Shown: positions 1-21,589 of the stretch, in pieces | Layout: every line of letters starts with the position of its first letter | How positions within the stretch are numbered: the stretch's first letter is position 1 | NCBI GenBank assembly: GCA_002917075.1 | Contig: NTMA01000026.1 | Span: 388,327-452,326 of the forward strand | Source of the DNA: Hawksworthiomyces lignivorus | Lineage: Eukaryota > Ascomycota > Sordariomycetes > Ophiostomatales > Ophiostomataceae | DNA length: 64,000 bases | Direction of reading: 5' to 3' | The notes under the pieces: generated by a model | The model's database searches: none | What the model was told of the DNA's origin: nothing | What the model saw: the letters and a program-made list of their open reading frames with translations, nothing else | Made by a program: the position numbers and the translations under genes

Positions 1-1
1 T

Positions 2-3000
2 GATATTTTGATTAAACTGCTTTCGGTCGATCCTGGAAACTATCCCGATGCGCCGACAGAAGCAATTAGACGGGTGTTGGAGCAGGCGACTGGCCGCCCA
101 TACCCCCGAGGAGAAAAGATATCTCTTCATGGTGTCGGTGCGTGTATTCAGGGATTCATGGACCGCCAGAGATTACGATGCCAAGGAGCCACTAACAGGA
201 TCAGAATCTATACGGATGGGCACAACTGTGGCAACGAATGCACTGCTTGAACGCAAGGGCGAGCGAGTAGTCTTTGCTGTCACTAAGGGGCTGAAGGTAA
301 CCGATGACTTCAAGATGTGATAAGACAGCGGAAGACGACTGACTAACTTTGGGTAAGGACCTCCTGCACATAGGCAACCAGTCTAGGCCGAGATTGTTTG
401 ACTTGGCTATCAACAAGCCAGACACGCTGTACTCCAAAGTCATCGAGGTAGATGAGCGGGTGACCCTCCCGGCGTGGACGGAGAGCAAAATACCAGAGAT
501 CATTGACATCGCCTCTAACCCGGCATTCGTCGAGGGTGTTACGGGCGAAGCTGTGCAAATTCTGAAGCCAATTGGTAAGTCTTCAACAATGAGCAGTCCA
601 TATTTTTCTATAACACAATATCATCTCTATGCTCTCTGTATATCTAACATCTCAGACCTGGAATCAACTAGAGCCAGTTTGCAGGCCGCTTACGACGAGG
701 GCTTCCGCTCCATTGCGATTTGTTTGATGCACAGCTTTACTTTTCGCGCCCATGAAGAGGCTGTGGGGAAGCTAGCAGAGTCGATTGGCTTCACACACAT
801 CTCGCTCAGTTCGGAGTTGTCACCAGTCGTCAAGATTGTATCGCGCGGCCACTCATCCACTGCCGACGCGTATCTGACGCCAGAGATACAACGATACATC
901 AGCAGCTTTGAGGCCGGCTTCGTTAATCTACGCACCAGCGGCTGCCGGTGTGAGTTTATGCAGAGCGATGGTGGCCTTGTTAATTTCACGGGTTTATCAG
1001 GGTTGCGATCGCTCTTATCCGGCCCTGCTGGCGGCGTTGTCGGCTATGCGCGCACATGCTATGACGAAACCATTGGGACGCCGGTCATTGGCTTCGACAT
1101 GGGCGGCACAAGCACCGATGTGTCCCGCTTTGCGGGTGAATTCGAGCAGGTGTTCGAGACCACAACGGCCGGTGTTGTTGTGCAGAGTCCCCAACTGGAC
1201 ATCAACACCGTTGCGGCGGGCGGCGGTAGTATATTGAGCTGGCAGAGTGGAATGTTCAAAGTTGGACCAGAGAGTGCATCTGCGCATCCGGGTCCAGCAT
1301 GTTACCGCAAGGGTGGGCCGCTCACTGTGACCGATGCCAACTTGGTCTTAGGTCGACTGCGTCCAGAGTTCTTTCCAAATATTTTCGGGCCAAATGAAGA
1401 CCAACCTCTAGATATTAATGCAAGCCGTGTACTATTCGAAGAGTTGACGGCTGAAATCAACAAGGAGGTCTCTGAGAAGCTGACCATAGAAGATGTAGCG
1501 ATCGGGTGAGTCATGAGAACAGAGTAGGAGATAATGGACCTTCTCAGTAGGTACTGATGTTTTTACGTTTAGGTTTCTCGACGTAGCCAATGAAGCTATG
1601 TGTCGGCCCATTCGCACGCTTACTGAGGCGAAAGGATTCGATGTTGGCCTGCACAACCTTGCATCTTTTGGTGGCGCTGGCGGCCAGCACGCGTGTGACA
1701 TTGCGAAGCGGCTGGGAATCTCCCGCATTCTTATACATAAGTACTCATCAGTGCTTTCTGCGCACGGCATGGCTCTTGCAGACGTCATTACAGAGGCACG
1801 CTCACCGTCAGCGGCAGTTTATAGCACCGAGACGCTGCCGCAATTTTCTCGAGAGCTAGACACGCTGCAGGCACGCGCCGTGCGCTCGCTGGAGGTCCAA
1901 GGCGTTGATGCGTCCTGCATAAGTACCGAGCGCTACTTGAACATGCGTTATCACGGTAGTGACGCTGCACTCATGATCCGCGAGACTCCTGATACGGCCA
2001 GCGCGGCAGGCGGCTGCTTGGCCATGTTTGAACAGGCACATCAAAACCAGTTCGGTTTCTTGCCTGTGGGCCGCGATGTCATAGTGGATGACTGCCGTGT
2101 ACGCGCAATCGGATCAAGCGGAAGTGATGCGCCGTCCCCGTGGTTAGTGCAACTCAAGGCCGTTGCCGCCGCCTCCTCCTCGGCCACTACCGCAGCACCT
2201 GCAACGTCAACCAAGGTCTATTTTCAAGACGAAGGTTGGCGGGCGACGCCCCTCTACATGCTAAACCAGCTCACTCCAGGCACCAAGATACCAGGGCCGG
2301 CGCTAATAATCGACGACAAGCAGACGATTGTCGTCCTCCCCCAGGCCGCGGCGATCATCGTCGCTGACCTTGTGATCATCGACGTACAGGTGGGCACCAA
2401 AGCCACGCTCTCGGCCACGCAGGCCAATCCCATCCAGCTGGCCATATTTGGCCACCGTTTCATGGGTGTGGCCGAGCAGATGGGCCGCGCCTTGCAGAAC
2501 ACCAGCGTCAGCACAAACATCAAGGAGCGTCTAGACTTTTCATGCACTGTTTTCTCGTCCGACGGCGGACTAGTTGCGAATGCGCCCCATGTGCCTGCCA
2601 TGGTAAGGCAGCAACTGTTTTTTTATTTTTCGTTCCATTTTCAGAATAGCACTGACGCTCATCATAGATTGGAAGCATGGCCTTCGCTGTCAAATGGCAA
2701 ATCAAGTACTGGGGTGATAATCTCCATCCAGGCGATGTCATCCTATCCAATGCACCAGGTAATATAAATACATCTAAACCCGTTAACAAGTCGTCATCGC
2801 GTCTAACTATTTTTGCTGTTAGAATGCGGCGGAACGCATCTGCCTGACCTGACCGTGATAACTCCCGTCTTTGATGCTGCAGGAGAAAAAATCATCTTTT
2901 GGACTGCTTCTCGTGGACATCATGCCGATGTGCGTGACAATTTTTCTCATCTGCTCAATCGCTATTATTTTGCTAATGTGCTGCTTTCTAGATTGGTGGA

Positions 3001-4445
3001 ATAGCTCCTGGTTCGATGCCGCCGTCTTCTAGACACCTGTCAGAAGAGGGCGCTGTCATCAAGGCATTCAAAGTTGTCGAAGCTGGCCACTTCAAAGAAG
3101 AAGAGCTCACGGAGCTGCTAATGGCCCCTTCCAAAATACCAGGTTGCAAAGGCACACGTTGTTTACAGGATAATATCTCTGACATTAAAGCTCAAGCTGC
3201 AGCAAACCACCGTGGCAGCCAGCTAATTCATGCCCTGATTGGCGACTACGGTCTAGAGGTGGTGCAGTTCTACAGTATGTGGTATTTTGCGAGGAGCTGT
3301 TGGCACGGTTAAAGGGAAAATGCTAATACCTTACAGTGGAACAGATTCAAAGCGCAGCCGAGAGAGCCGTCCGCGATATGCTTAGACAGATTTACCAGAC
3401 AACCGATGGCAAACCACTAGAGGCTGTTGATTACATGGATGATGGTACACCCATTCGGCTTAAAGTAACCATTGATGAAGCAAGCGGTGGCGCGATTTTT
3501 GATTTTGAGGGTACTGGTCCTGAAGCGTATGGTGAGAGAAACATCTTTTCCTATTTTATGTTGCTTCGTGTCTCGGAACTCTCCACTCTCTGACCACCTT
3601 TAGGTAATTGGAATGCTCCCATTGCCATTTGTCACTCTGCCATCATATTTGCGCTGCACTGTATGGTCAACATGGAGATCCCACTCAACCAAGGCGCCAT
3701 CCGCCCCATCGATGTTCGCATCCCCGAGTCGTCGCTGCTGCACCCGTCAGAAGACGCGGCAATCTGCGCTGGCAATGTTCTGACGTCTCAGCGGATTGTG
3801 GACGTCATCTTCAGAGCCTTCCGCGTGTCGGCCGCGAGCCAGGGATGCATGAACAACTTGACCTTTGGCACCGATGACGCCGAAAACGGCTTCGGATACT
3901 ACGAGACGATCTGTGGTGGTTCTGGCGGCGGGCCGACTTGGGACGGCACGAGCGGTGTCCACACAAATATGACTAACACACGGATAACCGATCCGGAGAT
4001 TCTAGAACGCCGCTATCCTGTTATTTTGCGCAGCTTCTGCTTGCGGCAAGGCAGTGGCGGGTCTGGCATTCATCCTGGCGGCGACGGCATCATACGAGAG
4101 CTAGAGTTCTGCATTCCCACCAAAGTGTCGATTCTCAGCGAGCGCCGCGCATTTGCGCCGTACGGCCTTGAAGGGGGTGCCGACGGTGCTCGCGGCGAGA
4201 ATCTTTGGGTGCTCAATACGGGCCGCGTCATCAACTTGGGGGGCAAGAACACGGCAATGATGTCGGCCGGCGATCGCATCGTCATTCGTTCACCCGGCGG
4301 CGGAGGCTGGGGCAATGTGTCGAAGCTAGACATTAGCAAACTGGCCATAAACGGTCACAACCATGCCCAAGCAACGAAGCACCAGTTTGTGAGCATCGCT
4401 AATGGCACAGTGGACATGATCAACTCTATGGGTGAATCAGCATAG
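2..4445 (+). CDS. 5-oxoprolinase / hydantoinase A-B fusion enzyme, 5' partial
   Basis: This is a cytosolic ATP-dependent amidohydrolase of the 5-oxoprolinase family, which opens 5-oxoproline or a related cyclic amide. The first visible residues (IKLLSVDP) match family position about 35, so the true start lies left of the window. Proposed exons are 2-137, 199-296, 358-574, 656-1505, 1573-2602, 2668-2758, 2823-2929, 2992-3274, 3337-3531 and 3604-4445. All joins keep frame and give about 1282 residues, close to the fungal full length of about 1300. The HyuA half carries [18 protein letters not shown] and the actin-like ATPase motif [13 protein letters not shown]. The HyuB half begins near [12 protein letters not shown] and holds [12 protein letters not shown] and a glycine-rich SPGGGGWGN end. 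It heads a cluster carrying the GAGGAGCACCAC motif, so the substrate may be a specialised lactam or hydantoin instead of glutathione-derived oxoproline. The substrate is inferred; the family is clear. Confidence 0.9.
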
Positions 4446-4921: not shown

Positions 4922-4933
4922 GAGGAGCACCAC
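4922..4933 (+). promoter_or_regulatory. Cluster motif GAGGAGCACCAC, copy 1
   Basis: Exact 12-mer 368 bp upstream of the dioxygenase start codon. First of five identical copies in the same orientation within the cluster. A role as a regulator binding site is inferred. Confidence 0.6.
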
Positions 4934-4961
4934 TCATCGAATCCATCATCAGGTCAACTAG

Positions 4962-4973
4962 GAGGAGCACCAC
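4962..4973 (+). promoter_or_regulatory. Cluster motif GAGGAGCACCAC, copy 2
   Basis: Exact 12-mer 328 bp upstream of the dioxygenase start codon, paired with copy 1. The flanking bases differ from those of copy 1, so the pair is not a simple local duplication. Confidence 0.6.
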
Positions 4974-5300
4974 GCTTTGCTGTTGATACCTGGTGTGGCC
5001 AAAGTCAGCTGAGTCCAGTCAAGTTGAGCACATTGCATATGCTCCTCCAACCCTTGGCCTCCGTCGTCGCTTTACCCCTCTGCCACGACGGCTATCCGGA
5101 ACCGGTTCCATCACTCTCATTTCTGCTCCTCTAGATTGAAGCGCAAGTAAGATGGATCTGTTGACCATATAACTGATGTCTTCATCAGAAAAAAAAGAAA
5201 AGCATTTCAATTGCGTCTAGATTCATTAACCACTGATAAGCATCCCAAAGAAAACCAAACTTTACTGTTCTCGCGCTACCTAAACAATCCCATCTTCACG

Positions 5301-6760
5301 ATGTCTAACCTTCCTAGCCTTGACTCCCTACCGGAATACGTCCCTCCTCCTCCAACCAAGGAGAACTGTAAGACACCCACCGTATATATCAATTATTCGT
5401 GGTTGATCATTGATTACTGACTTGAACACAGTGGACTATGTCGACCTGGTCAACATTGATCTGTCCAAGTTTGACACACCCGAAGGCCGCAAGGAGCTCG
5501 CCAAGGATCTTTATTCTGCAGCTACTGGCTATGGATTCTTGACTCTGACAAACCACGGCATTAGTAATGAACTTTATCAGCGTCAGATGCGCATCGCCAA
5601 TGCGGTTATGACCCTCCCAGAGGAGCTAAAGTCTCCATATGAAGGTGCATAATCATTGATGCAAGACATGAAAATTTACATTACTTACCAACCTAATAGT
5701 AACACCGGAAGAAGATGCCCGTGGTCTGTATGTGGGCTACAAGCCTCATGGTCCACTTGGTCACAAGGGTGGATTTCCCAAACAACTGGACCATTACAAC
5801 ATCCTCGTACATGATCCCAAGAATCGAGAGCACCCAGAAATCATGCGCCCATTTATTCCAGAAACGGTTGAACTTATGCAGTTCATCCGTAGTAACATTC
5901 TGTCCAAGCTGCTCTCCTTGACGGCCATGATCCTGGAAGTGCCAGAGGAGACCGTACTGTCCACGCATGCTCCGGGAGGCTCCAAGACTGAGTACATCCG
6001 CTACGTGAGATTTCCCTCTTTAATTTTTTTTTTTTGCCATATTGGCCGATTTCACTCTAATCTCCTTCTATAGATGATGTGCGAGCCTCGCTCTAAAGAG
6101 GAGAGCGAAAAGTACCGTGATATTTTCCTCTCTGGCCACACTGGTAAGTCGATAAATCTACTATTAAATTAGTGGAGCAGTAGAGTTGTTCGCCACGAAA
6201 AGAAAATCTCAAAAAAAGAGTAATATCTAACATTCGTAGACTGGGGTACGTGGACGTTCCTCTTCAGCCAGCCTATCGCGGCGCTGCAGGTGCTATGTCA
6301 CCATACAGGGCGCTACCGCTGGGTGCGGCACCAGCCCCATGGCCTGGTCATCAATTTTGGAGAGGCCCTGGAGCGGCTGACAGGCGGCGTCTTCAAGGCC
6401 ACAGTGCACCGTGTAGTGCAGCCTCCGGAGGACCAGCGCCACCTGCGTCGTATTGGTGTGATTTACTTTTCGCGACCCGCGGATGAGCGCGAGCTAGTGC
6501 CCATCGAGGGTTCGCCGTTGCTAGAGCGCTTGGGCTGCGACAAGCCCATTGACGAGCGTGTTTTCTGCATGGCTGACTATCTAGATGCGCGAAAGCATGG
6601 TTGGCATCGGTACGAGTTTGACATCGACAAGCCGCGCGATGCGGAAAAGCACGCTGATTTCTTTGATGGAGAGTACCCCGATCCTGAGGGCCACAAGAGC
6701 CTGGGCAAGTTTGATAACCTGCCGCGCCTCAACTACCAGATCCCGCAGGTCAAGACTTAG
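5301..6760 (+). CDS. 2-oxoglutarate/Fe(II)-dependent dioxygenase, isopenicillin N synthase-like
   Basis: A non-haem iron oxygenase that couples 2-oxoglutarate decarboxylation to hydroxylation, desaturation or ring chemistry on a small molecule. Exons 5301-5367, 5432-5644, 5700-6004, 6074-6143 and 6240-6760 keep frame and encode 391 residues. The N-terminal DIOX_N region contains YVDLVNIDLSKF and GYGFLTLTNHGI. The catalytic domain has the iron ligands HTDWG (H and D) and ATVHRV (distal H), with the downstream Arg of RRIGVIYFSRP expected to bind 2-oxoglutarate. All key residues are present and no break is seen. Two motif copies lie in its promoter, which ties it to the regulator gene at 10.5 kb. 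It lies in the same direction as the oxoprolinase, 0.85 kb downstream. The substrate cannot be read from the sequence. Confidence 0.9.
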
Positions 6761-8055
6761 AGAAAAAGAGGAGTCAGAAGAAATAGGCATGATGCCAGGA
6801 GTAGCTTCAGCCAGTAAGGCAAGCTAGAATTCTCATTATCCATAGTCAAAATGCTACACGTAATCATTACATGAGAGATTGGATGCCGTTCCCAGTTATA
6901 ACAGGTTAAAACTCATTTGAGTAAACCGTGGCCACAAGAGGCTACACCGAAGCCTCACCGCAGATGCAGAGACAACCTGGCTCATAGCTCGTCAGAAGCA
7001 GCGCAGTTAGAGCACGCTCGGGTTACCATTTTTGGAAATAATGCCATTTGGGGAAGGTTATTGAAAGAACAGTAAGTGTATAACTTTCAAAATAAGGGCA
7101 GCAACTTTCCTAGGCCCGCTACGTCTCCTGGGGAAACTAGATAATGAGAATAAACAGAGAGAACGGTCTAGTAATGAGGGAAATAAAATTCCGCTGCGGT
7201 TCAACCAATGCAAGGAGATCTAAGTTCCTTGTAAGGTATGTGAGATAGGCGGAATTTGTTGATGTCCCCATGCACATGAAGCAATATTGTGGAAGAACCA
7301 GCTTAACAGACAGCAACAAGTGGTGTAAAGTTGATTGCTTGGCTGGAGCTCCGCTTTCCTGTCTACTCTTGGCAAATTTAGAGCTAACAACGGGTTTCGT
7401 TTCTCCAGTCGGGCTAGTGCCATCTTTACGACGCTTATAGGAGAGTTTAGTGTCCTCTTATCAACACTTATCGATGCTACTAGCACAATGCCCTTATCCA
7501 CGACGTCGTCCTCGCTGTGGACCCCTCATTTCTACTCCTATTTCTCCGTGACAGCTGTAAACAGTACAGACCTGATCCACGAGCTGACTTGTCCTTACAT
7601 TTATTAGAGCGCTTGCTATTTGCCCCAGCTCTCTACTACTGCTTATCCCGGCGTCCCGGTTTGTGGGGAATATCTTGCGCTTGTACGCGGATTACTTAGT
7701 GCGTTCCTTGGTGAGAGGAGCACCACCTTAATGGTAGCATTTCACCCTCGTCATTTACTAGAGATTCACGTCTCCATCAGATAGTACAACATCCATTGAA
7801 GATAATGCGAGGTATTTCGTATGCACTGAGAAAAAGCACGGTCGTGGTGTACCACCAGGAAGGGATATAAGGTCGCAACGGGTGAGCATCCAGATGGTCA
7901 TAGGTGAGGAGAGACAACACGAGACAGGTAACAGGCTCGACACCAAGCAATCTTCGCTGCTATTTCACCGTTGTCTGCCATCTTTCTGTTGCAGGGCAAC
8001 GACTTTAATAGGACAAGATATTCTTCCTGTGTCTACTTATCAACGACGCAATACG
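6761..8055. other. Intergenic, 1.3 kb, with cluster motif copy 3
   Basis: Short ORFs on both strands show no recognisable domain or codon bias. The only distinct signal is GAGGAGCACCAC at 7715, near the permease. Confidence 0.5.
7715..7726 (+). promoter_or_regulatory. Cluster motif GAGGAGCACCAC, copy 3
   Basis: Exact 12-mer 330 bp upstream of the permease start codon, same orientation as the other copies. Confidence 0.6.
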
Positions 8056-9767
8056 ATGTTTGAAAAAGCGCGGAAATATTTTACGGGGCCGCCACGGTCA
8101 CCGTTGGAGAGGAAGCTTGTGTTCAAGTTGGACTTCTTCATTTTGACGTTCTGCTGTTTGGCTTACTTCGTGTACGTAGATATCTGCTACGCAACAGCCA
8201 GGAAGGCGATAGAGCTACGACAGCTAACTTGCATTCCAGGAACTATCTCGATCGATCTAATGTCACCCAGGCTTATGTGTCGGGCATGAAGACAGATCTT
8301 AATTTCCACGGTGCTCAGCTCACAGTTGTAAATTCCATTTATCAGACTGGGTACATCCTGTGAGTTTCCTCGAGAAATTAGAATCTGGAAGAGAAAAATG
8401 AGAACAAGAGAATGCCAAAATAAGTGCTAATTGTTTCCCGCAGTGGCATCATCCCCAACAATTTGCTCTTGGCACGATTCCGACCGCGGATCTTCTTTCC
8501 ACTCATGATCTGTATCTGGGGGTCTCTCTGCATGTGCAATGCAGCGGCCAAGAGACCGCAGGATATCATGGCCATTCGCTTTTTCCAAGGCTATGCGGAG
8601 TCGTGTGTTTTCGCCGGCACTCATCTCATTCTAGGTGCATGGTATACGGAGGAGGAGTTGGGCAAGCGCAGCGCCATCTTCACCAGTTCTGGACTTGCCG
8701 GTGGCATGTTCGGTGGTTTCCTTTAAACGGCTATCCATGAATCTATGGATGGTTTGTCCGGTCTGTCCGGTTGGCGCTGGCTATACATTGTGCGTTACTT
8801 CCACCTGACAGCTGTTAGATAGTGGTAATTTTCTCTCGAGGCGAAAAATACTAACCTGATCTCAGATCGACGGTGTAATTACCTTCCCTGTGGCCATCTA
8901 TGGTTACTTTTTCTTCCCCGACACGCCAGCCACCACTACAGCAAGCTACCTGTCACAGGAAGAAAAGGAGCTGGCGATTGCGCGAGTTCCTATCTCCGAG
9001 GAAGAAATACCGGTTCTGAATTCTGCTTTCGTACGCAAAGTCATGACGTCGTGGTACGTATATGGCTTTGGTATCCTGTGGGTGCTGGCCAACTGCTCTG
9101 AAGCCTTCAGCTCCCAGAGCTTGCTCAATTTATACATGCAGGCCCACCCCACAATCCACTACACTATCTCACAGTTGAACAACTATCCAACCGGCGTGCC
9201 CGCTGTCGGCATCGCTTCTACGTTGCTGTGGGCCACCTACACCGACATCTACGGGCGGCGCTATATTACCGGCTTCCACAATGCCGTTGTTGGTATCTGC
9301 ACTTCAGTTATCATCTTGGCACCGACCACAACCACCGCCGGTATCTTTGGTGCCTACTATTGGGCCGGTACCATTTACTGCTGCCAGGCCACATTTTTTG
9401 CCTGGGCGAACGACACCATGCGCGGCCGCCCACCTGCTCTTCGTGCCTTCGTTATAGCCTTCATGAACTTTGCCGGTAACTCCTTTCAGGTTTGGTGGCC
9501 GCTCATTTTCTACCGCGCCGATGATGCACCTATGTTTAGAGTACGTCTTATCCCCTTTCTTCCCTCCTCTATTCTCAACATGGACCCTGACAGCTGCAGC
9601 GCGGAGCAATTTGCATGATTGTCGTCACCGCCCTTCTGGGTATTTGGACTTTGGTCGTGATCCTGTTGGAGAGATGGCACAAAAAGAGACAGGTTGTTTT
9701 GGACGGAATCGATGAAGTCGGTTCGACATCATCCAAGCTGGCCGAAGAGGGCACGAAATCTGCGTAG
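8056..9767 (+). pseudogene. MFS anion:cation symporter (Dal5/allantoate permease family) with in-frame stop
   Basis: A plasma-membrane transporter of the ACS family, which takes up organic anions, vitamins or small amides. Exons 8056-8171, 8240-8359, 8444-8789, 8866-9540 and 9600-9767 join in frame for 474 codons, but codon 8724-8726 is TAA. It lies between GGMFGGFL and TAIHESMDGLSGLSGWRW, where relatives usually have Gln, so a single C-to-T change in CAA would explain it. Family marks are NYLDRSNVTQAY after helix 1, GWRWLYIIDG, and DTPATT after helix 6. Both sides of the stop stay intact and spliceable, so the damage is very recent, a sequencing error, or read through. Termination at the TAA would leave about 180 residues and no working transporter. 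Motif copy 3 lies upstream, so the gene belongs to the cluster regulon. Confidence 0.8.
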
Positions 9768-10516
9768 ATTGCTCAAATGATGTAGATACGCTTTTTATTT
9801 CATCTTGCCTTTCCACTCAATTTAATCACTGTCGTTTTAGTTCTCATAACAGGCTTGACTTTCCACCTGTTGTGAATGACGATTATAGGACTTTGACAGT
9901 AAATGCATGAAATATGATTTAGTACACATCCTGATCTTACGTCGTAAATGTTCATGTAGCGTAAATTTGGTTTGCTGTGAGATGGCGCGTACGCTTCAGT
10001 CTAGGCTGTTCCTGGACATGCAAACTTGCGTTGCTGTGTTCTTCTAGCTCTACCCCGGATTTTTCTGTGCTTGTGCTTGTCAAAGCGAATCCTCAGCCAC
10101 CTCGGTTGTCACCAAGAGGAGCACCACTTCATGACAGCTTTGGGACCCCTGGTATGTGTACCCGTAAAACTGCACGCTAAGACTCCAGATCTCATTAGCT
10201 AGTCCTATCTCGAGTTCCCCTCTCTTTGATTAGCCCCACAATAGTGATAAGGTCGTCATCCAGCACAAATTCTCAGAATATGGGAAACAAGCAGATCGCT
10301 GTTATTTCGGCTCTATGCCATACGCGCTTCTTCCTGCTACTCTTCAGCTGCCTTGTGCTTTCTTTCCTGCTTTCAATACGAGCCACTGTCGCGGGTGTAC
10401 ATGCGCATCAGTGCCATCTAGCCCAGCTTACGGACGGCTTCACAATATAGTGTCTGCGCATCCGAGGAGGGCTACGAGGTCACATTCGTATCTAAAACAT
10501 TGTATGATCTCGCAGC
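9768..10516. other. Intergenic between permease and regulator, with cluster motif copy 4
   Basis: No coding region is seen. The regulator promoter contains GAGGAGCACCAC at 10116, which suggests autoregulation. Confidence 0.5.
10116..10127 (+). promoter_or_regulatory. Cluster motif GAGGAGCACCAC, copy 4
   Basis: Exact 12-mer 390 bp upstream of the regulator start codon, same orientation as the other copies. Its place before the regulator's own gene fits autoregulation (inference). Confidence 0.6.
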
Positions 10517-13279
10517 ATGTCGGCAGTAGCCGAGGATGCTATAACGTCCGCACCGGACACCAACAGTGTGCTGCGTCCCTTTACATGCTCTGCATGTTCG
10601 AGTCGCTTCACTCGGCTGGTGGGTTTCCAGTCACTACTCAGTTCCGCCTTTGGTGGTCGCTTCTGTCAAAAGTATAGCTAATAGTCAGCAAAGGAGAATC
10701 TAAGTCGACACACGCGCTCTGGTGAGTGCAGGCCGCTGGCTTCCAACGCTGCTTGAAAATGTAATTCTTATCAAGACGTATCGACCAGTCCACAGTGAAT
10801 CAAACCATCGCCCGTTCCCATGTCCATACTGCGACGTTTCCTTCTCTAGAAGGCAAGTATCCCGATCTCACCTGGGACGGCTTCATTTCGCGTGCCAATA
10901 TAGGCCAGAAAACGGTAGTTAATTCTAATGCTTCTCTGGAGGACAGCGATCTAAGGAAGAGACATATCAGAAAATCCCACCAGAAAGGCTCAAAGTCGCC
11001 CACTGCCATACCTGCAACTGCGAGTGTCCTTGAGGTCACAACAGAAGAGGTATTTGATCATTATTATTGTTCCACATCCTCTCGATTCGCACTAGCTATG
11101 TAAGAACGGGAGTGTTACACATGCTGAAATTTGTGGCTCTTCAGCAGCCCCCTGCTCAGCAGTTATCTCAAAATGAGATATCGTGGTTGTTCAAGTTGCC
11201 GCGATATATTGCTGCATACTTTAACATATTCCATCCGACGTTTCCCATGTTGCATAAGCCAAGTATTGACATGGCCACGACTAAAGAGCCTCTCCTTCAA
11301 GCTATTGCCTGCATAGGATGCATATATCACACACCACAAGAATCGTTTAGCACATCTCTGTTCGAGGCGGGACTCAAGACACTTGATGCTTATGTATAGT
11401 GTTACGCCGTCCATACTTCATTCCCTTCTATTTTTGGAAGTCAAAGTCTGTTAACACTAATAGACAAATCAAGATCGGTCGCGTTTCCGTGAGATATGGG
11501 TCTTCCAGGCATATATATTGTTTGAAGCATTTGCTCTCTACAGCTGCGTAGAAAATCAATATCCTAGATCCATTGAGATACACCGGCGGCTAGTTGACGC
11601 AGCACGAGAATTTCAGATATTTCAAGATAGTGCCACCTTGAACGGTAGCAGCCCAGAAACCTCGATGTGTGAAATTGGGGAAACTGATTCTGAAGAGAGC
11701 CGGTGGAAGTCGTTTATTGATCATGAATCACTAAAACGGTAAGTATCATAAGCAGCGCTGATATCTTCTGTCAATAGGAAGACAATAGAGAGGCTAACAT
11801 AGCCAGGGTTGTCTTTTCCTTATACTATCTCGACGCACAGCTGTCGGTGAGCTGCAACGTGCGACCGCTCTTGTCGGCGCTCGAGCTTAAGTATCAGCTC
11901 CCGTGTCCCGACAACCTCTGGAACCTTCCTACTGCTACCTCGTGGAGTCTGATGCTACAGGTGCAGAGCCTGTCTTTCAATATGAACGAAGAGGATGACT
12001 ACGACGGCAATCCTGAGCCGCGGCCAGCTAATGGAGATCTGTACGAGTGCCTGCTGCAGCTCATCCATCGAGATACGGGCGTGCGGCAACCGCTAGGCCT
12101 CTTATGGTACTCACCATTTGCCACCCTCATGCTCATCATACAGATGCAAATGATGATCCGCGACATGACGCTCGCAAGTGTGTTCTTCTTTTCGAATATG
12201 AACTTGGGGTCGAAACGACACAACCTGTGCGCGCGCACTCACATAAATCTTTTCTCTTTACTCGCATCAGATATCTAACAAATGCTTTAGGTCCCTGGTC
12301 TCTGAAGACAATAGGTCGCAAATTTTTCAAGCGCTCCAAAGCCTGGGAGGTACATATTCCAGTACATAGTAGCAGAGGAGAGCACTAGGCAAGCCAAGCT
12401 GACAAGATCCCGTCGTCTTCAGACCTCATTCCGAAGCTTGCCTCACTGGACGAGCTAGATGATGTCACGACCATGTTTGGACAGGAACCGTCTGTGCGTG
12501 CCGAGCGAGGAAGCAAAGCTCTGTGGCATTCGGTATGGGTGGCGTGGCACTACACAGCTATGTCCCTCACACATCAGGATGCACTCCTCACTACAGGAAT
12601 CGTCGAATTTGGTCTTCCTAACTCGATAGCAAGTACGATTATGACAACATGTAGTGGATACACCTGGATTCTTGTGCTAATAATTATTGGTATTCAAGCT
12701 TGCTTGGAGCTAGGAAAGCCACGGTCCAAGGATTACCGCGACATATACAACGACCGGGATTTCATACGCATAGTAAGTTGCTATTTTCCTCTATGTTGCC
12801 GTTGCGCAGATGTGGAACGGAAATAGAAACAAAACTCAAATTTCTGTTAGATGGACCACCTCGAAGAGATCATGCACTTGATCAACTCACCGGAAGTGGC
12901 TCTGGTCGAAGTTGGAACGCCATCGCAATGCCACGAAGACCCATTTACGACTCTTCTCTCATACAAGGCGTGCGTCATGGGCTGGCGACTAGTCCGCCTC
13001 ATAGCTCTCGGTGTCGAGCATATGCGAATGAGCACGTCCATGGGAGATGTGCCGGTTAAGGCCAGTATTTCTGTGTCGCTGGCTTCTGTAACGCTTTCGC
13101 GACTTATGAGAGCTATCAACTCGGACGATACTGGCGCCATCTCCACACTTATGAGTGGAACAAGATCTGACATAAGCTATCTGTGCTGGGCTGCATCGGC
13201 CTTTGCGTTAAGGAACACTTGGCCCTTGGGTTCGTGCATGGTAGCTGGTTTTCAAGAAGCAATGAGAGAAACGACATGA
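10517..13279 (+). CDS. C2H2 zinc-finger / fungal-trans-domain transcription factor
   Basis: A nuclear regulator that probably controls this cluster. Proposed exons are 10517-10618, 10694-10721, 10789-10852, 10947-11049, 11145-11393, 11464-11738, 11807-12177, 12291-12349, 12407-12632, 12699-12772 and 12851-13279, giving 659 residues in one frame. Two N-terminal fingers appear only after splicing: FTCSACSSRFTR-LENLSRHTRS and FPCPYCDVSFSRS-DLRKRHIRKSH. The middle and C-terminal parts match the fungal-specific regulatory domain (FHPTFPMLHKP, then RVVFSLYYLDAQLS and LPCPDNLW, then WVAWHYTAMSL). The intron after 10852 has a GC donor (GCAAGT) and an AG acceptor at 10946. The join at 12177/12291 is the least certain, because alternative donors nearby were considered. 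The target is inferred to be GAGGAGCACCAC. Confidence 0.8.
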
Positions 13280-13392
13280 CATTAACTACCTACTTGTACG
13301 GCGTGTAGATTCCTTGCGCTGTACAAATAAGCAATTCACGATTCTCAGTTGCGGAATTCATGTCATGTTAATATTGAATGCTATGTGATTAT

Positions 13393-14203
13393 TTACAAAC
13401 CATCATAGTCTGGATATGTTCCACCAGGCTCATCCCGGATTACGTTTTCGCCGAGATACTTTGTAAAAATGGGATCAGAACGGAAGCGCATGTAGTACTC
13501 ATGAACGATAGGGTGTTTGGCCGCCCAGGACTTAGTAAAAACCTTCGACAAATTAGCCTCGAAATACTCGGAGAGAAGAAACAACTCACATATTGATAGC
13601 CACGAGCCAGACCGGAGACGACAAACAAATCGGCAATGGTGAGCGTATCGCCGACCAGGAATTTCTTTCCCTTGATGCTTGTTTCGATAGCGCGCACCGT
13701 AAGCTCGCAGTTCTCTTCCAGTTGCGCCAGCTGCTCTGGACTGGCCACGGAGCGACCGATGATCGGGTTGATCCACGCCATAATTGGGGGCAGCAGCTCA
13801 TAGTCGGTGAAAGAGGCCCATCTCAGTACAGTGGTCTCCTCGCGCAGATTTGAGCCGAGTAGTGTCGTTTTAGGATCTTGCTTGGCCACTAAAAAGAAAG
13901 AAAAGCAGACTGTTAGAAGTAGTGTGGCTAGACAGTAGCAGGGACAAAACCAGGCCTAGACGTACGGAACCACGATACAGCAATATTCTCATAGACGCAG
14001 AAGCCATCAGCTGTCTCCAAGGCAGGTACCTTTCCTGGGTGGAACTTGGAGAGGTATTCGGCACCAACACCGCCCTTCTCCGGATATATCTTGATGGGAA
14101 ATGCGTTTACGATCTCGACGTCAAGCTTCATCAGCTCAGCGATGTATAGAACCATCGTCGAGCGAGGAGCTTTGGGATAGGTATAGATCTTGCCAAATGA
14201 CAT
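13393..14203 (-). CDS. Glutathione S-transferase, EF1B-gamma-like
   Basis: A cytosolic enzyme that joins glutathione to electrophiles or isomerises substrates. Exons 14203-13966, 13888-13590 and 13542-13393 keep frame for 228 residues. The N-terminal thioredoxin-fold part contains KIYTYPKAPRSTMVLYIAEL and the cis-Pro segment GKVPALETADG, followed by YENIAVSWFLA. The helical C-terminal domain has the N-capping-type region GDTLTIADLFVVSGLARGYQ and the sequence VFTKSWAAKHPIVHEYY, characteristic of the EF1B-gamma-like class. The second intron is only 47 bp. The gene is divergent from the reductase at 14654, and the shared 450-bp promoter holds motif copy 5. A role in detoxifying a reactive intermediate of the pathway is inferred from context. 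Confidence 0.88.
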
Positions 14204-14653
14204 GATGGGCGTGTGTGACTATGCAGACTTTCTTGAATCTTTTTTATGGCGCTGAGCTTTACTTGTTGGCTACTAACAGGAAATTTAAAGAGGAAAGCAC
14301 ACAACACTTAATATATTACTGCAAGTGACTTTTCTGCAGGCTACACCCCGTAATTCGAGGAGCTCATTCCAAGTGTGCTCTTGCAAGTGGGTAATTTCCT
14401 AGGTTTTGAGCTGTCGGATCTTATCGCGCCCGACCCTGGCGGAGCTTGAGGAGCACCACCTATATTGATTATGCTAGCGCCGGAAATTACGATAACGTAT
14501 TTGTGGCTTCCAGAAGGACATTGAATATGAAAAGCTTCTAATTCTGGACGCACATCCTTCAAATTTGCGGCCAGTCATAGGACAAATGCTTGTGTCTGTA
14601 GTGTTTCGTGGAAGACTTGAGACGGACTTCTTATTACTTATTTTCCGAAGTGA
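14204..14653. promoter_or_regulatory. Divergent promoter of GST and SDR genes
   Basis: A 450-bp bidirectional region with one motif copy near its middle, 245 bp from the GST start and about 195 bp from the SDR start. One site could serve both genes. Confidence 0.55.
14448..14459 (+). promoter_or_regulatory. Cluster motif GAGGAGCACCAC, copy 5
   Basis: Exact 12-mer in the GST/SDR divergent promoter; the last of the five copies I found in the window. Confidence 0.6.
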
Positions 14654-15818
14654 ATGGCCACCAGCAAAATGTCTACGATTCAGTAAGCCGCTATGATGTC
14701 CGCAGAAATTCATACTTGGACTCACAAAATCTCGCAGATATGTTCTGGTCACCGGTGCCACCGGCATGGTTGGAAGCCACGTCGTTGACAATCTCCTCCG
14801 GCACGGCTTCAAAGTGCGTGCAGTAGTACGGTCAAAGGCTAAGGCAGCAAGACTTCAAGAGACGCAAAAACACTTTAGTGACCGGCTCGATTTCTATTAT
14901 ATTGACGACCTCTCAACCCCAGGCGTATTTGACCATACGTTGAAGGACATTGAAGGCGTCATACATGTAGCAAGTGTGAGTTTCCCACTCTACAGTGCGA
15001 CGTATTCCAAACACAGAAAAGGATACAGGCTAACAATCAACTAGCCACTGAACTACGATGCGGTGGACAAGGAAAAAGAGCTCATAATTCCAGCTATCCG
15101 CGGTGTACAAACACTTCTAGAAGCCTGTAATAGCAGCAGCGTTCGTCGGGTGGTGATGACGTCTTCGTTTGGTGCCGTGCTCGACATGGGCCGCGAAGAG
15201 GCAATGGCATACACGTACTCTCCACGTGATTGGAATCCAATTACGTATGCCGAAGCAGCAGATCCAGCGGCATCTCCACAGGACGCGTACCGAGGTTCAA
15301 AAGTGTTTGCAGAGCAGGCAGCGTGGGAATTTGTCAAGACAGCGCGGCCATCCTTTGACCTGGTCACGCTTTGTCCGTCCATGATATTTGGGCCCGTTGT
15401 TGGCGGATTTGCGACGGCTGGGGAGCTCAACGAGTCTAACAAGCTTCTCTGGAAAGTCGCAAATGGAGGGTCGTCCGCGCCACCGGAACCGCTGCCGCCA
15501 GCACGCTTCAATTTCTGGATCGACGTGCGCGACCTCGCCGAATTACACGTCCAGATGCTCTTCAGCGACAAGGCTGGCGGCAAACGCTACATGCCCGTAG
15601 CACCAGAGAAATTCAACTACCAGCTTGTGTCTGAAATCATGCGACACGATGTTCCAGAGTGGCCCAGTGAGCGAGTTGCAATGGGCACCCAGACCATTAA
15701 GGAGCATATCAATGGCGATCGTGGCGATATAGAGGCTGATTTCCCACTTGTGAAGTATCACTCTTTGAAGGAGACCGTAGTAGATTTTATGAAGCAGGCA
15801 ATGGCGGCGAAAGCATAG
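14654..15818 (+). CDS. NAD(P)-dependent extended SDR reductase/epimerase (GRE2/DFR-like)
   Basis: A cytosolic oxidoreductase that probably reduces an aldehyde or ketone with NADPH. Exons 14654-14682, 14738-14975 and 15045-15818 encode 346 residues in frame. The Rossmann motif VTGATGMVGSHV lies at the N-terminus. The catalytic residues are Ser in VVMTSSFGAV and Tyr and Lys in DAYRGSKVFAEQ (YxxxK), all intact. NFWIDVRDLAELHV is typical of the dihydroflavonol-reductase and methylglyoxal-reductase branch. The start was chosen at the ATG that gives a short lead (MATSKMSTI) before the beta strand YVLVTGATG. It shares a promoter and motif copy 5 with the GST, so it belongs to the same regulon. The substrate is unknown. 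Confidence 0.9.
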
Positions 15819-16531: not shown

Positions 16532-19500
16532 CTAAATTTCAATCATATCAGTGTCCTCATCTGTTGTCGTGCATTTTGATGCTCTTCTTTTCACACGTTG
16601 GTCAAATTGAGCAAGCACTGCTGTACGATTTTCAACTTCGCTGTCCACGCCCGTCAGCACATTTGCATCACCGGATCTGTTGTCTTCACCATCGCTGCTA
16701 ACTCGCCATTGGAGTGACGGAGCGCTCTGCTGCACGTGCAAGACAGCATAATCGCGCGGTGTCATGCCGGTTTCGTCCTCGATGGTGCCGTCGGCCCCAT
16801 GGTCGAGCAGCCACTCCACAGCATCGACCGCTCCGCTGTCGACTGCCCAGTGCAGTGGTGTGCGGCCGGTCTTGTTGCGTGCATCGATGAAAGCTGGCGG
16901 CCGCTGAGGGTTTGAGGGGAACAGCAACTCGTGGAGACACGCAGGCTGGTTCATGTTGGCTGCCGAGTGCACTGGTAAGCTGCCGTTAGTTAGCTGGCAG
17001 TCTAGGTCAGCGCCAAATTCGTCTAGGAGCGCTGCCAGGAGGTCTGGCCGCCCGGATCGGGCTGCCTTGTGCAGGGGCCGCCAGCCCTCGACGTTGCCGG
17101 CCGGGGCATTTACGTCTGCGCCATATTCTGAGATGAGCACGCGCATGGCTGCGATGGTGCTGGCACTATCGTGACCGGCGCACCGGATGAGCGTGTGTAG
17201 GGGCGGTTCGTCATGCTCGTCTAGGTGGCTGTGCCGGTGTGGGTCGGCGCCCGCCGCAAGGAGAGCACGTATAACATCGACAGCTTCGCCGTATTTCTCC
17301 TCCTGTCTTCCCTTTTCATCAGTGCGACAGTCCTCTCCTATCGTCGAGTCTACCTCAAATTGTTCTTTCTCATTTATCATATCGGCTTTGTCGCTTCTGC
17401 GATTGCCGACATTCATGCAAGCCGCCGCCAACATGGTTGTGTCTGTTCCGTATGGATGGCTGACGCCATTAGCGTCAGCACCAAAGGCTAGCAGCTCTTC
17501 CACAACGCGGAGCGAGCCGCCTTGGATCGCCCAAAAAAGCGAATTGTCAGTAAATTCTCGAGATGCACCGCTTGCGGCAGAATTTGTTGCCTCTCCGGTG
17601 CCGTTATTTGGCTTCTCGAGGCTAGAAGAAACACGAATTGATACCTTGGCTTGTAGTTTAGCGCCAGCTCCAAGTAGCAGGCAAACAATGGCCAAATTTG
17701 ACTGATATGCAGCCATGCTTAAAGGCGTCCATGGTTCATCCCCTTCGAATGGGGTGTGGATGCCATGATGTTTACACGCTGGAGGAATTTGATTTGGATC
17801 GGCCCCATGCGCCAAAAGACAGCTCACGATGTCTGAACGACCGCTATGAGTAGCAGCCTGCAGCGGCGTGAAATAAACACAATTCTTGCTGTCATGGTCG
17901 TAGTAGTGCTCGGGGCGAGACGTAAGGTGCACACTGGCACCAGCGATCAAGAGGTACACAACTGTCTCGCAGTGTCCGTTCCATACGGCTGCCTGCAATG
18001 GAGTACCGCATTCGCTGGATGCGTTGTTAATATCAGCGTGGCCTTCTTTTACAAGCAGGCCTACCATGTCGAGGCGTGGAGAGGATGCAGCCTGGACCAG
18101 GGGAGGAAGGCAGCCGCTGGCGCTTTTGTTGACGTCAGCGCCGTGCTTCACAAAAAGGGCAACAATCTCAGGCTTGTCATCTGCCACAGCCTCGCAGATA
18201 AGATACGTTTTCCGTCCAGCCTCTGTGGTTAGGGGCATATTGAAGTCAACGACACCGCTTCCTACAATTTGTTCAACAAGACTCCTTTCCCCGTTCCTGT
18301 ACGCCTCGATGATGACTTTTCCTAAGTCGCTGTGCTCCTTCAGCTTCCAGGGATCTAACTGGAGATCTTCTTCGGTTTTATATTGTCGTGTTGTTTCTTT
18401 TTCTTTGGCAGTGGTCGCCAGTATATTTTCGATTAAGTCGTTGTAGCCCAGCTGTGATGCGCAGCTGATAGCCCACGAGGGCATGTAGACGGCAAAGAGG
18501 GCCAACACCTGCTGAACATTCGTCTGTGTCAGCCTCAGGGGGGCTTTGAAAGGCTGTTTGCCGAAGACTGTATAAAAGCTCGAGTGGATTATGCCTTTTT
18601 TCGTCTTCGGGAGGATAATCTCCATACACTCGGTAAAGCCATGGTAAGCCGCCACCGCCAGGGGATAGGGATGTGGGCTCTTGCTGTAGAACCTGTTTGG
18701 ATCGGCTCCGGCCTCCACCAGGTGTCGCACAACATCTACGTAGTTGTTACGGCACGCCAGCATCAGCGGTGAGCTCTCCATCTTGTATCCTAGCCCGTTT
18801 GGTAATGCTTTGTACTGCAACAAGAGAGCGACCATGTCTGCATGACCTGCTGCCGCAGCTGCCCGCAGTGGCTCTTGGAATAATCCGCCACCGCCCAAGG
18901 GGTTGGCGCCAGCCTCCAAGAGCAGCCGGGCGGTACCAGTATGTCCATAATATGCCGCAGCCTGCAGGCAGCTTTTGTGTGTGTCCCCCGTCACAGCAGG
19001 GTCAGCACCGGCCGCAAGCAGCAGTTGCACCAGAGCCTCCAGCCCAACAGAGCTGGCGTAATACAGTGGCGCGGGAAACTCCTGGCGCTCGGGGTTTGGG
19101 TTTCGCCAGGGCTTGCCCGGGTCGTAGAGGCGACACCAGTTCTTGTAGTGTCCCTCGTCGCCTGTTCGTATGCCCACCAGATCCGCAGCCATTCTCGTCA
19201 GCAAATCGTCCCGTGCGTGTGTTTCCGAGCGGGCAAAATGATGAGTCCAGAGTTCTGCCGCAACGCGCGCCAGCGGACGATCTTCCAACAACACTTCCGT
19301 TGCTGGACTGTCCAGTGCAAGCAAGTAATGTAGCAACGTTTTTGCAACATGAGCATGGACAGAGGAAGCGTCTTGGATTGCGGTGAGGGATGGTGGCAGG
19401 TTTTCACCATCGTTCAAAAAATCGGCTACAAAAGACTTTGACAGAATGTACTCCTTCACCGTGTAGTGTGCAAGGCTCAGCTCCGTCGTAGGCTCCGCGC

Positions 19501-21589
19501 TGGAGCCGCCGGCTGGGCTTGGCTTCGTGATTGTCCTGACCAGCGTCGTGCACATCGACGAGATGTCGCTGAGATCGGGAACGCGCAAGTCTTCGTCAAA
19601 GGTGTATTTGCCGTCGCGACTGTAGCTCTCGTCGTCGTCCAAGTCTACCGCCAAGATGTCTGCGGCCGCACGGATATCGACAGGGCTCGGTGACACAGCC
19701 AGCCAGAGCAGAATGCGGATGGCATACGCGCGGTGGAGCTCGTCGACGCTGCCGAGCGTACGCCTGTACGTCTCTGACAGAGATTGTGGCAGGGCAGTCA
19801 AGGCCTGGCGGACTTGCCGAATAGTCACGCATTTTTGCAGCATACCCAGCTGGCAGTCAGCCCAGCGGAACATGCCGCGGGCGCCCTGGGAAAGGGACGC
19901 GTGGATCTCGCGTCGAAGCTGCGGCGGCCAGCGGCGAAGCTTGGGGTGCGTGTCGAGCTGCTGGCGTATGAATGCGTCAATGTCGGAATCCACCTTGTTT
20001 GCTTCGGCAATCATAACTAAGCTGCTGCTGCTGCTCGCTGTGCTCCCGCCATGGAAAAGTGTACTGATTTCGGGTGTGTGGCGACTTGTCAGAAAGATGC
20101 GCAGTTTGCCGCCACCACTGGTCGACGAGGACGGCGGAAGCAAAGCCTGGTTCCAAGAGAGAATTTCGCTGAGATATTGAACCAAGACTTCTTGGTTGGT
20201 ACATTCGTCCAGTGCATCCAGTACAATGTAGATGTCCTCCTCGTCACCGATGGCCTGCTTGATGAGGCTTCGAAGCGTCGCAAGGACATCCTCAGCCGAC
20301 GGCTCTGCTGCTTCGCCAGAGACAGAAGTGATATTTCTGTTTGTCATTAAGACTGGGATTTGGTCATAGGAGAAATATTTATTGTTTGGTGTTGGCCTGA
20401 AATAGTTTGCGGCGAAATTGACAACGCTGGGCGGCAAAGTCTCTCTACCAGCAACCAGCTGCGAGACCAGCGAGCGCAACATCGTCTCCGGCCGAGAGAT
20501 GGCTTCATTCCCAAAGTCGAAATAAAAGTACGCCAAAGAACTAGCCGTTCCTTTGAATGACTGTCGAGTGTCGCAAAGCTGGGCTTTCTGGATATGGTCG
20601 ATGACACTGGACGCAAGCACAGATTTACCACTACCGGGGATGCCATGCAGCCAAATGCAAGGCAGAGATGCTGGTTCTTTTTCTCCAATTTTTGGGCCAT
20701 CTTGCAGCCAAGTGAGAAATTCATCGCTCTCGAGAAGCCAGCGTGACGTTCCCGGGGCTCGTCGACTGCAGTTATCGCGGTGCTTGGCGGTCATGTCACA
20801 AGGAGGTGCCAGCCACTCCACGATAAGCTCTCGCCGCTTGCGTAGCCGCGACTCTTCTGCAGCCTTCGCAGATTCCTGTCTTGCAGCTTCTTCTTGAGCA
20901 AGCTGGGTGGCTTGCGTATTGCGGATGTCCTGGGTCGTGCGGTGGATGTCGAGCACGGCGCTGGCTGTGTCGGTGGTCAGGGCAAGCTCAATCACACTGC
21001 GTAGACGATGGATCTGCTCCAGCGCCCGAAGAATGTCCCCTTCCTGCAGCGGCCACAGAAGCATTAGCGCGATGCCAAGTAACTTTCGGTGGGCCTGCTG
21101 CTGCTGCTGCTGCTGCTGCTGTTTCCATACTTTCATGGGCTTTCGCAACCGCTCTTCGACGCTCTCAAGTTCTACCAGGCACTGAGAGAGCAGACCATCT
21201 GTGTTCCCAACAAGCCCTGCGAGGGCTGGAAGCAGCGTAAAATGGTCATTTGAAGTCACCTCTAAACTCTCCAATGTAGATTTTTTATCGGCGACATATT
21301 TGGCTGTATTGTGATCCAGTGAAGTGGCTTCCTCATAACCGGGAAGCCCCCCAGTCTTGTCATCGAATGTCCGGCTGTCGTACTCGATCCAATCTTGCTG
21401 CTCGCTATCTAGTAATTGAAGAAGCCGTTCAACAATGTTACGCAACGACTGCACTTCGCTAAGGAGCCGAACGACGTCTTTCTTTGCGCCCTTGACCCCT
21501 CGTCGATAATCATAGCACAAAGAAATGATGCTGCCGCTGATTTGAACCACAGCGATAAGACTGGCCGTGATGCTCAAAGGGTCCGCCAT
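16532..21589 (-). CDS. NACHT-ankyrin STAND/NLR-like protein
   Basis: An intronless 1685-residue NOD-like receptor of the fungal STAND type, the group that includes heterokaryon-incompatibility and presumed innate-sensing proteins. The N-terminus (MADPLSITASLIAVVQISGS) matches the fungal STAND N-terminal helical domain. Nine consecutive CAG codons give a poly-Gln run near residue 160. The NACHT domain follows GTSRWLLESDEFLTWL and has Walker A GIPGSGKS near residue 317 and Walker B IYIVLDALDEC near residue 455. From about residue 840 to 1620 there are many ankyrin repeats (for example APLYYASSVGLEALVQLLL and TGRTPLHWAVDSGAVDAVEW). The frame is intact throughout, so it is likely functional. The ligand and effector output are unknown. 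The repeats are not near-identical, unlike those of the fast-evolving WD40-type het genes. Confidence 0.92.
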   Translation of the reverse strand: MADPLSITASLIAVVQISGSIISLCYDYRRGVKGAKKDVVRLLSEVQSLRNIVERLLQLLDSEQQDWIEYDSRTFDDKTGGLPGYEEATSLDHNTAKYVADKKSTLESLEVTSNDHFTLLPALAGLVGNTDGLLSQCLVELESVEERLRKPMKVWKQQQQQQQQQAHRKLLGIALMLLWPLQEGDILRALEQIHRLRSVIELALTTDTASAVLDIHRTTQDIRNTQATQLAQEEAARQESAKAAEESRLRKRRELIVEWLAPPCDMTAKHRDNCSRRAPGTSRWLLESDEFLTWLQDGPKIGEKEPASLPCIWLHGIPGSGKSVLASSVIDHIQKAQLCDTRQSFKGTASSLAYFYFDFGNEAISRPETMLRSLVSQLVAGRETLPPSVVNFAANYFRPTPNNKYFSYDQIPVLMTNRNITSVSGEAAEPSAEDVLATLRSLIKQAIGDEEDIYIVLDALDECTNQEVLVQYLSEILSWNQALLPPSSSTSGGGKLRIFLTSRHTPEISTLFHGGSTASSSSSLVMIAEANKVDSDIDAFIRQQLDTHPKLRRWPPQLRREIHASLSQGARGMFRWADCQLGMLQKCVTIRQVRQALTALPQSLSETYRRTLGSVDELHRAYAIRILLWLAVSPSPVDIRAAADILAVDLDDDESYSRDGKYTFDEDLRVPDLSDISSMCTTLVRTITKPSPAGGSSAEPTTELSLAHYTVKEYILSKSFVADFLNDGENLPPSLTAIQDASSVHAHVAKTLLHYLLALDSPATEVLLEDRPLARVAAELWTHHFARSETHARDDLLTRMAADLVGIRTGDEGHYKNWCRLYDPGKPWRNPNPERQEFPAPLYYASSVGLEALVQLLLAAGADPAVTGDTHKSCLQAAAYYGHTGTARLLLEAGANPLGGGGLFQEPLRAAAAAGHADMVALLLQYKALPNGLGYKMESSPLMLACRNNYVDVVRHLVEAGADPNRFYSKSPHPYPLAVAAYHGFTECMEIILPKTKKGIIHSSFYTVFGKQPFKAPLRLTQTNVQQVLALFAVYMPSWAISCASQLGYNDLIENILATTAKEKETTRQYKTEEDLQLDPWKLKEHSDLGKVIIEAYRNGERSLVEQIVGSGVVDFNMPLTTEAGRKTYLICEAVADDKPEIVALFVKHGADVNKSASGCLPPLVQAASSPRLDMVGLLVKEGHADINNASSECGTPLQAAVWNGHCETVVYLLIAGASVHLTSRPEHYYDHDSKNCVYFTPLQAATHSGRSDIVSCLLAHGADPNQIPPACKHHGIHTPFEGDEPWTPLSMAAYQSNLAIVCLLLGAGAKLQAKVSIRVSSSLEKPNNGTGEATNSAASGASREFTDNSLFWAIQGGSLRVVEELLAFGADANGVSHPYGTDTTMLAAACMNVGNRRSDKADMINEKEQFEVDSTIGEDCRTDEKGRQEEKYGEAVDVIRALLAAGADPHRHSHLDEHDEPPLHTLIRCAGHDSASTIAAMRVLISEYGADVNAPAGNVEGWRPLHKAARSGRPDLLAALLDEFGADLDCQLTNGSLPVHSAANMNQPACLHELLFPSNPQRPPAFIDARNKTGRTPLHWAVDSGAVDAVEWLLDHGADGTIEDETGMTPRDYAVLHVQQSAPSLQWRVSSDGEDNRSGDANVLTGVDSEVENRTAVLAQFDQRVKRRASKCTTTDEDTDMIEI
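21095..21121. repeat. (CTG)9 trinucleotide repeat coding for poly-Gln
   Basis: Nine uninterrupted CTG units on the plus strand read as CAG glutamine codons in the NLR gene. A pure repeat of this length is prone to copy-number change. Confidence 0.9.

Follow-up and report, generated by a model that had tools for sequence, protein, structure and literature searches.

A zero-spacer GNGGWG-CWCCNC dyad as the probable operator of a cluster-encoded C2H2/Fungal_trans regulator in Hawksworthiomyces lignivorus

In fungi, the regulator of a given pathway is as a rule a Zn2Cys6 protein. HxnR, the regulator of nicotinate catabolism in Aspergillus nidulans, is a C2H2 protein that is itself inducible (excerpts of PMC5746545 and PMC8478523), and is presented as unusual in the first of these. 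Its predicted sites are given there as 5'GHGGGG or, relaxed, 5'GNGGDG, which the authors describe as not experimentally determined. Here we describe a 12-bp element in 64,000 nucleotides of the fungus Hawksworthiomyces lignivorus (the window; C111:388327-452326, at the right end of the contig), analysed together with about 50 kb upstream as a joined region of 113.9 kb. The element recurs in the promoters of a run of ten genes, for which the HxnR regulon is the closest precedent. Like the regulator encoded within the run, HxnR combines two C2H2 fingers with PF04082; its gene lies among those that it controls, and both gene sets contain MFS, 2-oxoglutarate (2OG) dioxygenase and oxidoreductase genes and bidirectional promoters. 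The HxnR sites are given in those excerpts as single hexamers, whereas the element here is a fixed dyad; HxnR has 865 residues, against 659 in our model. No counterpart of HxnS, HxnM, HxnN or HxnT is evident by Pfam among the ten genes, the remaining genome not having been searched for them. On sequence evidence the dyad is probably the operator of the cluster's own C2H2/Fungal_trans regulator, bound by a head-to-head pair and uniting the ten genes, the regulator included, in one regulon.

The original prediction, made from the letters of the window, held that five identical 12-mers (GAGGAGCACCAC) on the plus strand lie about 200-400 bp before the dioxygenase (two copies), the permease, the regulator and the divergent glutathione S-transferase (GST)/SDR pair. 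All five are present and exact, 195-390 bp from the modelled start codons (Table 1). Shuffling the window 100 times gave a mean of 0.02 copies, with no shuffle reaching five, and no other 12-mer has five copies in the 113.9 kb, A-rich runs and trinucleotide repeats excepted. The sequence was read correctly, and what was overlooked is its unit: two GNGG(A/T)G hexamer half-sites form an inverted repeat, abutting with no spacer, and the 12-mer is one version of this broader motif. In the joined region there are exactly eight places with the degenerate dyad GNGGAGCNCCNC, all inside 19.4 kb. Three of these lie left of the window, in two further promoters and in that of the oxoprolinase gene, whose inspection had been proposed and which carries GAGGAGCTCCAC 469 bp before the ATG; the regulon is partly outside the window. 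A second, degenerate copy, GAGGAGCCCCAA, is present in the oxoprolinase promoter at L019:9575.

Table 1. Modelled genes and dyads of the cluster. Window coordinates are contig positions minus 388326; gene boundaries were modelled with a small splice-aware script and curated by hand, with families assigned by Pfam.
Feature	Position	Strand	Details
Hydantoinase/oxoprolinase (OXP), 3' part	1..4445	+	Hydantoinase_B 3.4e-208, Hydantoinase_A 1.2e-98 (Pfam); modelled start C111:388177, 150 bp left of window
2-oxoglutarate/Fe(II) dioxygenase	5301..6760	+	5 exons, 391 aa (model); DIOX_N 2e-13, 2OG-FeII_Oxy 6.2e-11
MFS permease gene	8056..9767	+	in-frame TAA 8724-8726; MFS_1 match either side of stop
Regulator	10517..13279	+	11 exons, 659 aa (hand-curated model); Fungal_trans 9.3e-25, zf-C2H2 6e-08 (Pfam)
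Glutathione S-transferase GST1	13393..14203	-	228 aa (model); Pfam
NAD-dependent epimerase/SDR	14654..15818	+	346 aa (model); Pfam; last site-bearing gene of run
Dyad GTGGAGCTCCGC	-4894		left of window
Dyad GAGGAGCTCCAC	-2396		left of window
Dyad GAGGAGCTCCAC	-629		C111:387697-387708; oxoprolinase promoter, 469 bp before ATG
Dyad GAGGAG-CACCAC	4922..4933	+	368 bp before dioxygenase ATG
Dyad GAGGAG-CACCAC	4962..4973	+	328 bp before dioxygenase ATG; 40 bp from 4922 site
Dyad GAGGAG-CACCAC	7715..7726	+	330 bp before permease ATG
Dyad GAGGAG-CACCAC	10116..10127	+	390 bp before regulator ATG; candidate autoregulatory site
Dyad GAGGAG-CACCAC	14448..14459	+	divergent GST1/SDR promoter; 245 bp (GST1) and 195 bp (SDR) from ATGs

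From left to right the run comprises genes for a hydroxyacid dehydrogenase (-), GST2 (+), a DHDPS-family protein (-), a class I aminotransferase (+; nearest in the PDB are aspartate aminotransferases), the hydantoinase/oxoprolinase (+), the 2OG dioxygenase (+), the MFS permease (+), the regulator (+), GST1 (-) and the SDR (+). Dyads are found in all seven promoter regions from the hydroxyacid dehydrogenase to the SDR, where they precede the modelled start codons by 165-469 bp. Three of these regions are divergent, and that of the dioxygenase has two dyads. None of the four convergent regions (two inside the run and one at each edge) has a dyad, nor does the promoter of a phenol-hydroxylase-type monooxygenase just outside the run. 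Promoters make up 22% of the run, and the probability of all eight sites landing there by chance is about 6e-6. At 165-469 bp before start codons some dyads could be transcribed, as an RNA-level element in 5' leaders would have to be; such an element is nonetheless highly improbable in place of a DNA-binding site, as the distances vary almost threefold and single dyads serve divergent pairs, so that the RNA would be read from opposite strands.

Conservation is confined to the sites. Across the eight, 10 of the 12 columns reach 2.0 bits, while among 24 flank columns one stands at 1.19 bits and the other 23 at 0.59 or less. When the seven promoters are compared by blastn, matches are at most 16 bp long, and all those with E < 0.1 are the sites themselves (12-14 bp). 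The flanks thus differ as had been said, with no shared repeat unit. A dispersed repeat, or a promoter segment duplicated and moved with duplicated genes, might be suspected from the two GST genes of the run, which look related, but is extremely improbable: homology among the promoters does not extend beyond the sites, dyads are absent from the convergent regions, and 8 of the 13 exact copies elsewhere in the genome lie in coding-like sequence. When all 12-mers of the seven promoters are searched blindly, which is free of post hoc motif choice, GAGGAGCTCCAC is the sole one present in 7/7 with no more than one mismatch; in each of 12 shuffled sets the best 12-mer is present in two or three of the seven.

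Genome-wide (43.7 Mb, 191 contigs), the exact 12-mer has 18 copies, 5 of them here within 9.5 kb; besides the eight coding-like copies, the 13 elsewhere include four in non-coding-like sequence and one that is unclear. The motif read backwards, used as the control for genome-wide counts, has 8 exact copies. At one mismatch or less there are 358 matches for the 12-mer and 259 for the control, so that the 12-mer is somewhat commoner than its control across the genome. For the dyad GNGGAGCWCCAC there are 51 matches at 49 places, the cluster included, a total near that of the control (49 matches), yet 8 of these places fall in the 19.4 kb of the cluster. The density of the other 41 predicts 0.018 dyads in 19,354 bp, against the eight present (Poisson P of about 3e-19); the dyad motif was chosen after the sites had been seen, and enrichment statistics on it are hence descriptive. 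The genome-wide search that accompanied the prediction as a proposal therefore finds the sites concentrated in this cluster. The idea of a cluster-wide regulon is supported by this concentration, by the site in the oxoprolinase promoter, by the blind search and by the finger match given below; its extent was underestimated, as it comprises ten genes and eight sites.

Of the 41 outside places, 26 look coding (scores of at least 10.3), 4 are intermediate and unclear (5.4-6.8), and 11 have a coding potential no higher than that of the cluster sites (at most 4.7). The measure is rough: among 35 genic control points, 3 likewise fall at or below 4.7. Extra regulon members elsewhere were considered and rejected: the neighbours, identified for part of these places, share no theme (a PEP carboxykinase at L014 and a protein O-mannosyltransferase at L012, for example). 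With no common theme and a genome total near the control, the outside places are treated as background. The exact copy at L014 (C128:138257) is non-coding; the PEP carboxykinase exon (PEPCK_ATP 7.4e-41) is some 1.2-1.5 kb away, and what may, by eye, be the 5' part of that gene is a closer coding-like stretch, about 216-383 bp from the copy. This copy could be there by chance. At L013 (C126:869630) a second GAGGAGCAC directly follows the 12-mer in non-coding sequence.

The 16 half-sites of the eight dyads are GAGGAG (7), GTGGTG (5), GTGGAG (3) and GCGGAG (1). Their outer middle base is free (T in 8, A in 7, C in 1) and their inner middle base takes only A (11) or T (5); all 16 fit the GNGGDG given in the excerpts for HxnR. 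A Zn2Cys6 reading of the element was rejected, there being no CGG or CCG in any of the five window sites. Inward-facing GNGGWG/CWCCNC pairs at spacing 0 number eight, all in promoters of the run, against one in the same promoters and five in the whole 113.9 kb at spacings 1-15. The distinguishing feature of the element is this fixed inward zero spacing. Yeast Adr1 is not cluster-specific. Like the regulator as proposed here, it is a C2H2 protein acting on a palindrome, UAS1, that holds two sites, and the UAS1 half TTGGAG resembles GNGGAG (excerpt of PMC6769490); in the UAS1 oligonucleotide of that excerpt, however, the halves face outward 8 bp apart, whereas here they face inward at 0 bp.

The regulator gene is located inside the run. 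The prediction that the cluster codes its own two-finger C2H2 regulator, with the fourth copy of the 12-mer upstream, agrees with the gene model: two C-x2-C-x12-H-x4-H fingers span residues 24-76, with helices R-LEN-LSR-H (finger 1) and R-SDL-RKR-H (finger 2). The Pfam zf-C2H2 match (53-76) covers the second finger only, and Fungal_trans lies at 123-331. The intron splitting the second finger (10853-10946) has an apparent GC-AG pair, with donor AG|GCAAGT at 10853; among the splices tried by eye, this is the one giving a canonical second finger. In C2H2 proteins finger 1 lies on the 3' triplet. The residues at -1, -4 and -7 before the first zinc-binding His are R, N, R in finger 1 and R, L, R in finger 2. 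By the C2H2 code as given in an excerpt of PMC12264921, these positions read the 5', central and 3' base, with Arg reading G and Asn reading A. Finger 1 on GAG and finger 2 on GNG give the predicted half-site 5'-GNGGAG-3', which matches the half-site of the dyad; the expected freedom of the outer middle base and the preference for A at the inner one are both seen in the half-sites. GipA of Aspergillus fumigatus likewise has two C2H2 fingers, and every gliotoxin-specific promoter except that of gliM contains a candidate site for it, but its site, 5'-TNNVMGCCNC-3', is single and variable, unlike the fixed dyad here, and the 3' end of its gene codes for the fingers, unlike in this regulator (excerpt of PMC4006717).

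In the mechanism that we propose, each monomer would read 5'-GNGG(A/T)G-3', finger 2 contacting the outer GNG and finger 1 the inner GAG or GTG. Two monomers placed head to head on abutting half-sites would give GNGGNG-CNCCNC, and their first fingers would meet in the middle of the dyad. One dyad per promoter region, and two at the dioxygenase, would make one regulon of the ten genes, and the 12-mer is probably the cluster's own switch. The bound regulator would activate, rather than repress, the run and its own gene with it, and the dyad lying 390 bp ahead of the regulator ATG is consistent with such autoregulation. The regulator would presumably be activated via its C-terminal half, as proposed for HxnR, by an inducer that is probably a compound of the pathway.

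Several observations weigh against this proposal. Half-sites alone are common, with 494 GNGGWG in the 113.9 kb. In an outward-facing control over 13 spacings, the top two chance pairs equal the score of the real sites (19.19), showing that half-sites pair by chance; the best six outward pairs lie at scattered spacings (6, 0, 11, 1, 12 and 12), which argues against a fixed outward, Adr1-like arrangement, and that arrangement was rejected. The seven orientable dyads (C111:385930-402785) all have the GAGGAG half on the left, on the plus strand, although a symmetric dimer would bind equally well in either direction. In five of eight dyads the right half reads GTGGTG, with an inner T that the Asn of finger 1 would be expected to favour less; asymmetric loading or a heterodimer could lie behind both the GTGGTG right halves and the fixed orientation. 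The gene boundaries are, throughout, computational models. Finally, a paralogue at C153:55725 (L033) has the same contact residues (R-HEN-LKR and R-PDL-RNR), the one other such protein among loci with extracted two-finger stretches, and could be the binder. This paralogue shows weak similarity to the Fungal_trans region of the regulator.

A regulon site bound by another two-finger C2H2 protein such as this paralogue, alone or as a heterodimer with the regulator, would account for left (GAGGAG) and right (GTGGTG) halves that often differ in a single orientation, and its predicted contacts are those of the cluster regulator. We regard it as unlikely, though worth keeping in view: the paralogue is on another contig, where the sole GNGGAGCWCCAC place is about 100 kb away, whereas the cluster regulator sits among the dyad sites. 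The genome also encodes a protein (L069) whose fingers we take to be CreA-type. CreA, the carbon catabolite repressor, is a C2H2 protein that reads 5'-SYGGRG-3' (excerpt of PMC5795998), which the half-sites GTGGAG and GCGGAG fit. There is very little chance, however, that the dyads are CreA sites, as SYGGRG is present in only three of the eight (missing from five) and in none of the five window sites, and a general, genome-wide repressor leaves a motif concentrated in one cluster unexplained; CreA may act additionally. Binding by the cluster's own regulator remains the reading that we prefer.

The best reading of the cluster is catabolic or detoxifying. Family and structure-sequence searches of its proteins name enzyme classes and indicate no substrate, and a literature search on its gene combination returned no paper matching the whole. 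The stop in the MFS permease gene may mark a pseudogene, an assembly error or an allele; the promoter dyad of this gene is intact despite the in-frame TAA. A dyad-free stretch adjoining the regulon on the left (C111:371600-381600; L020, L019) encodes a Fungal_trans regulator, an MFS transporter, an allantoate/N-carbamoyl-type amidohydrolase (without a site) and a phenol-2-monooxygenase-type flavoprotein. The best NCBIfam match of the dyad-free upstream monooxygenase is PRK08294, the family also given for HxnV in the excerpts, at 226.7 of 560 bits, below the curated cut-off. The right-hand boundary of the cluster is a 1685-aa open frame (16532-21589, minus strand) whose architecture is NLR-like: it combines an NPHP3_N nucleotide-binding region with numerous ankyrin repeats.

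Our literature searches turned up no operator of this kind for any pathway-specific C2H2 factor of fungi, and a search combining C2H2 with Fungal_trans, gene cluster and palindromic returned no paper joining all of these. The literal 12-mer led to no paper on a fungal regulatory site, judged by title, and the excerpts of PMC3998117, PMC12941744 and PMC9304392 hold no site for a factor of this kind. That a fixed zero-spacer, head-to-head GNGGWG-CWCCNC operator of a two-finger C2H2/Fungal_trans regulator serves a whole catabolic cluster together with the regulator's own gene is a statement on which we find the balance even. The same fixed dyad may also underlie the HxnR sites. In this one locus regulator, predicted half-site and operator agree, which makes a specificity rule for two-finger monomers, abutting and head to head, testable. 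The dyads would delimit a co-regulated ten-gene pathway, and other fungi can be searched with the dyad motif for comparable clusters.

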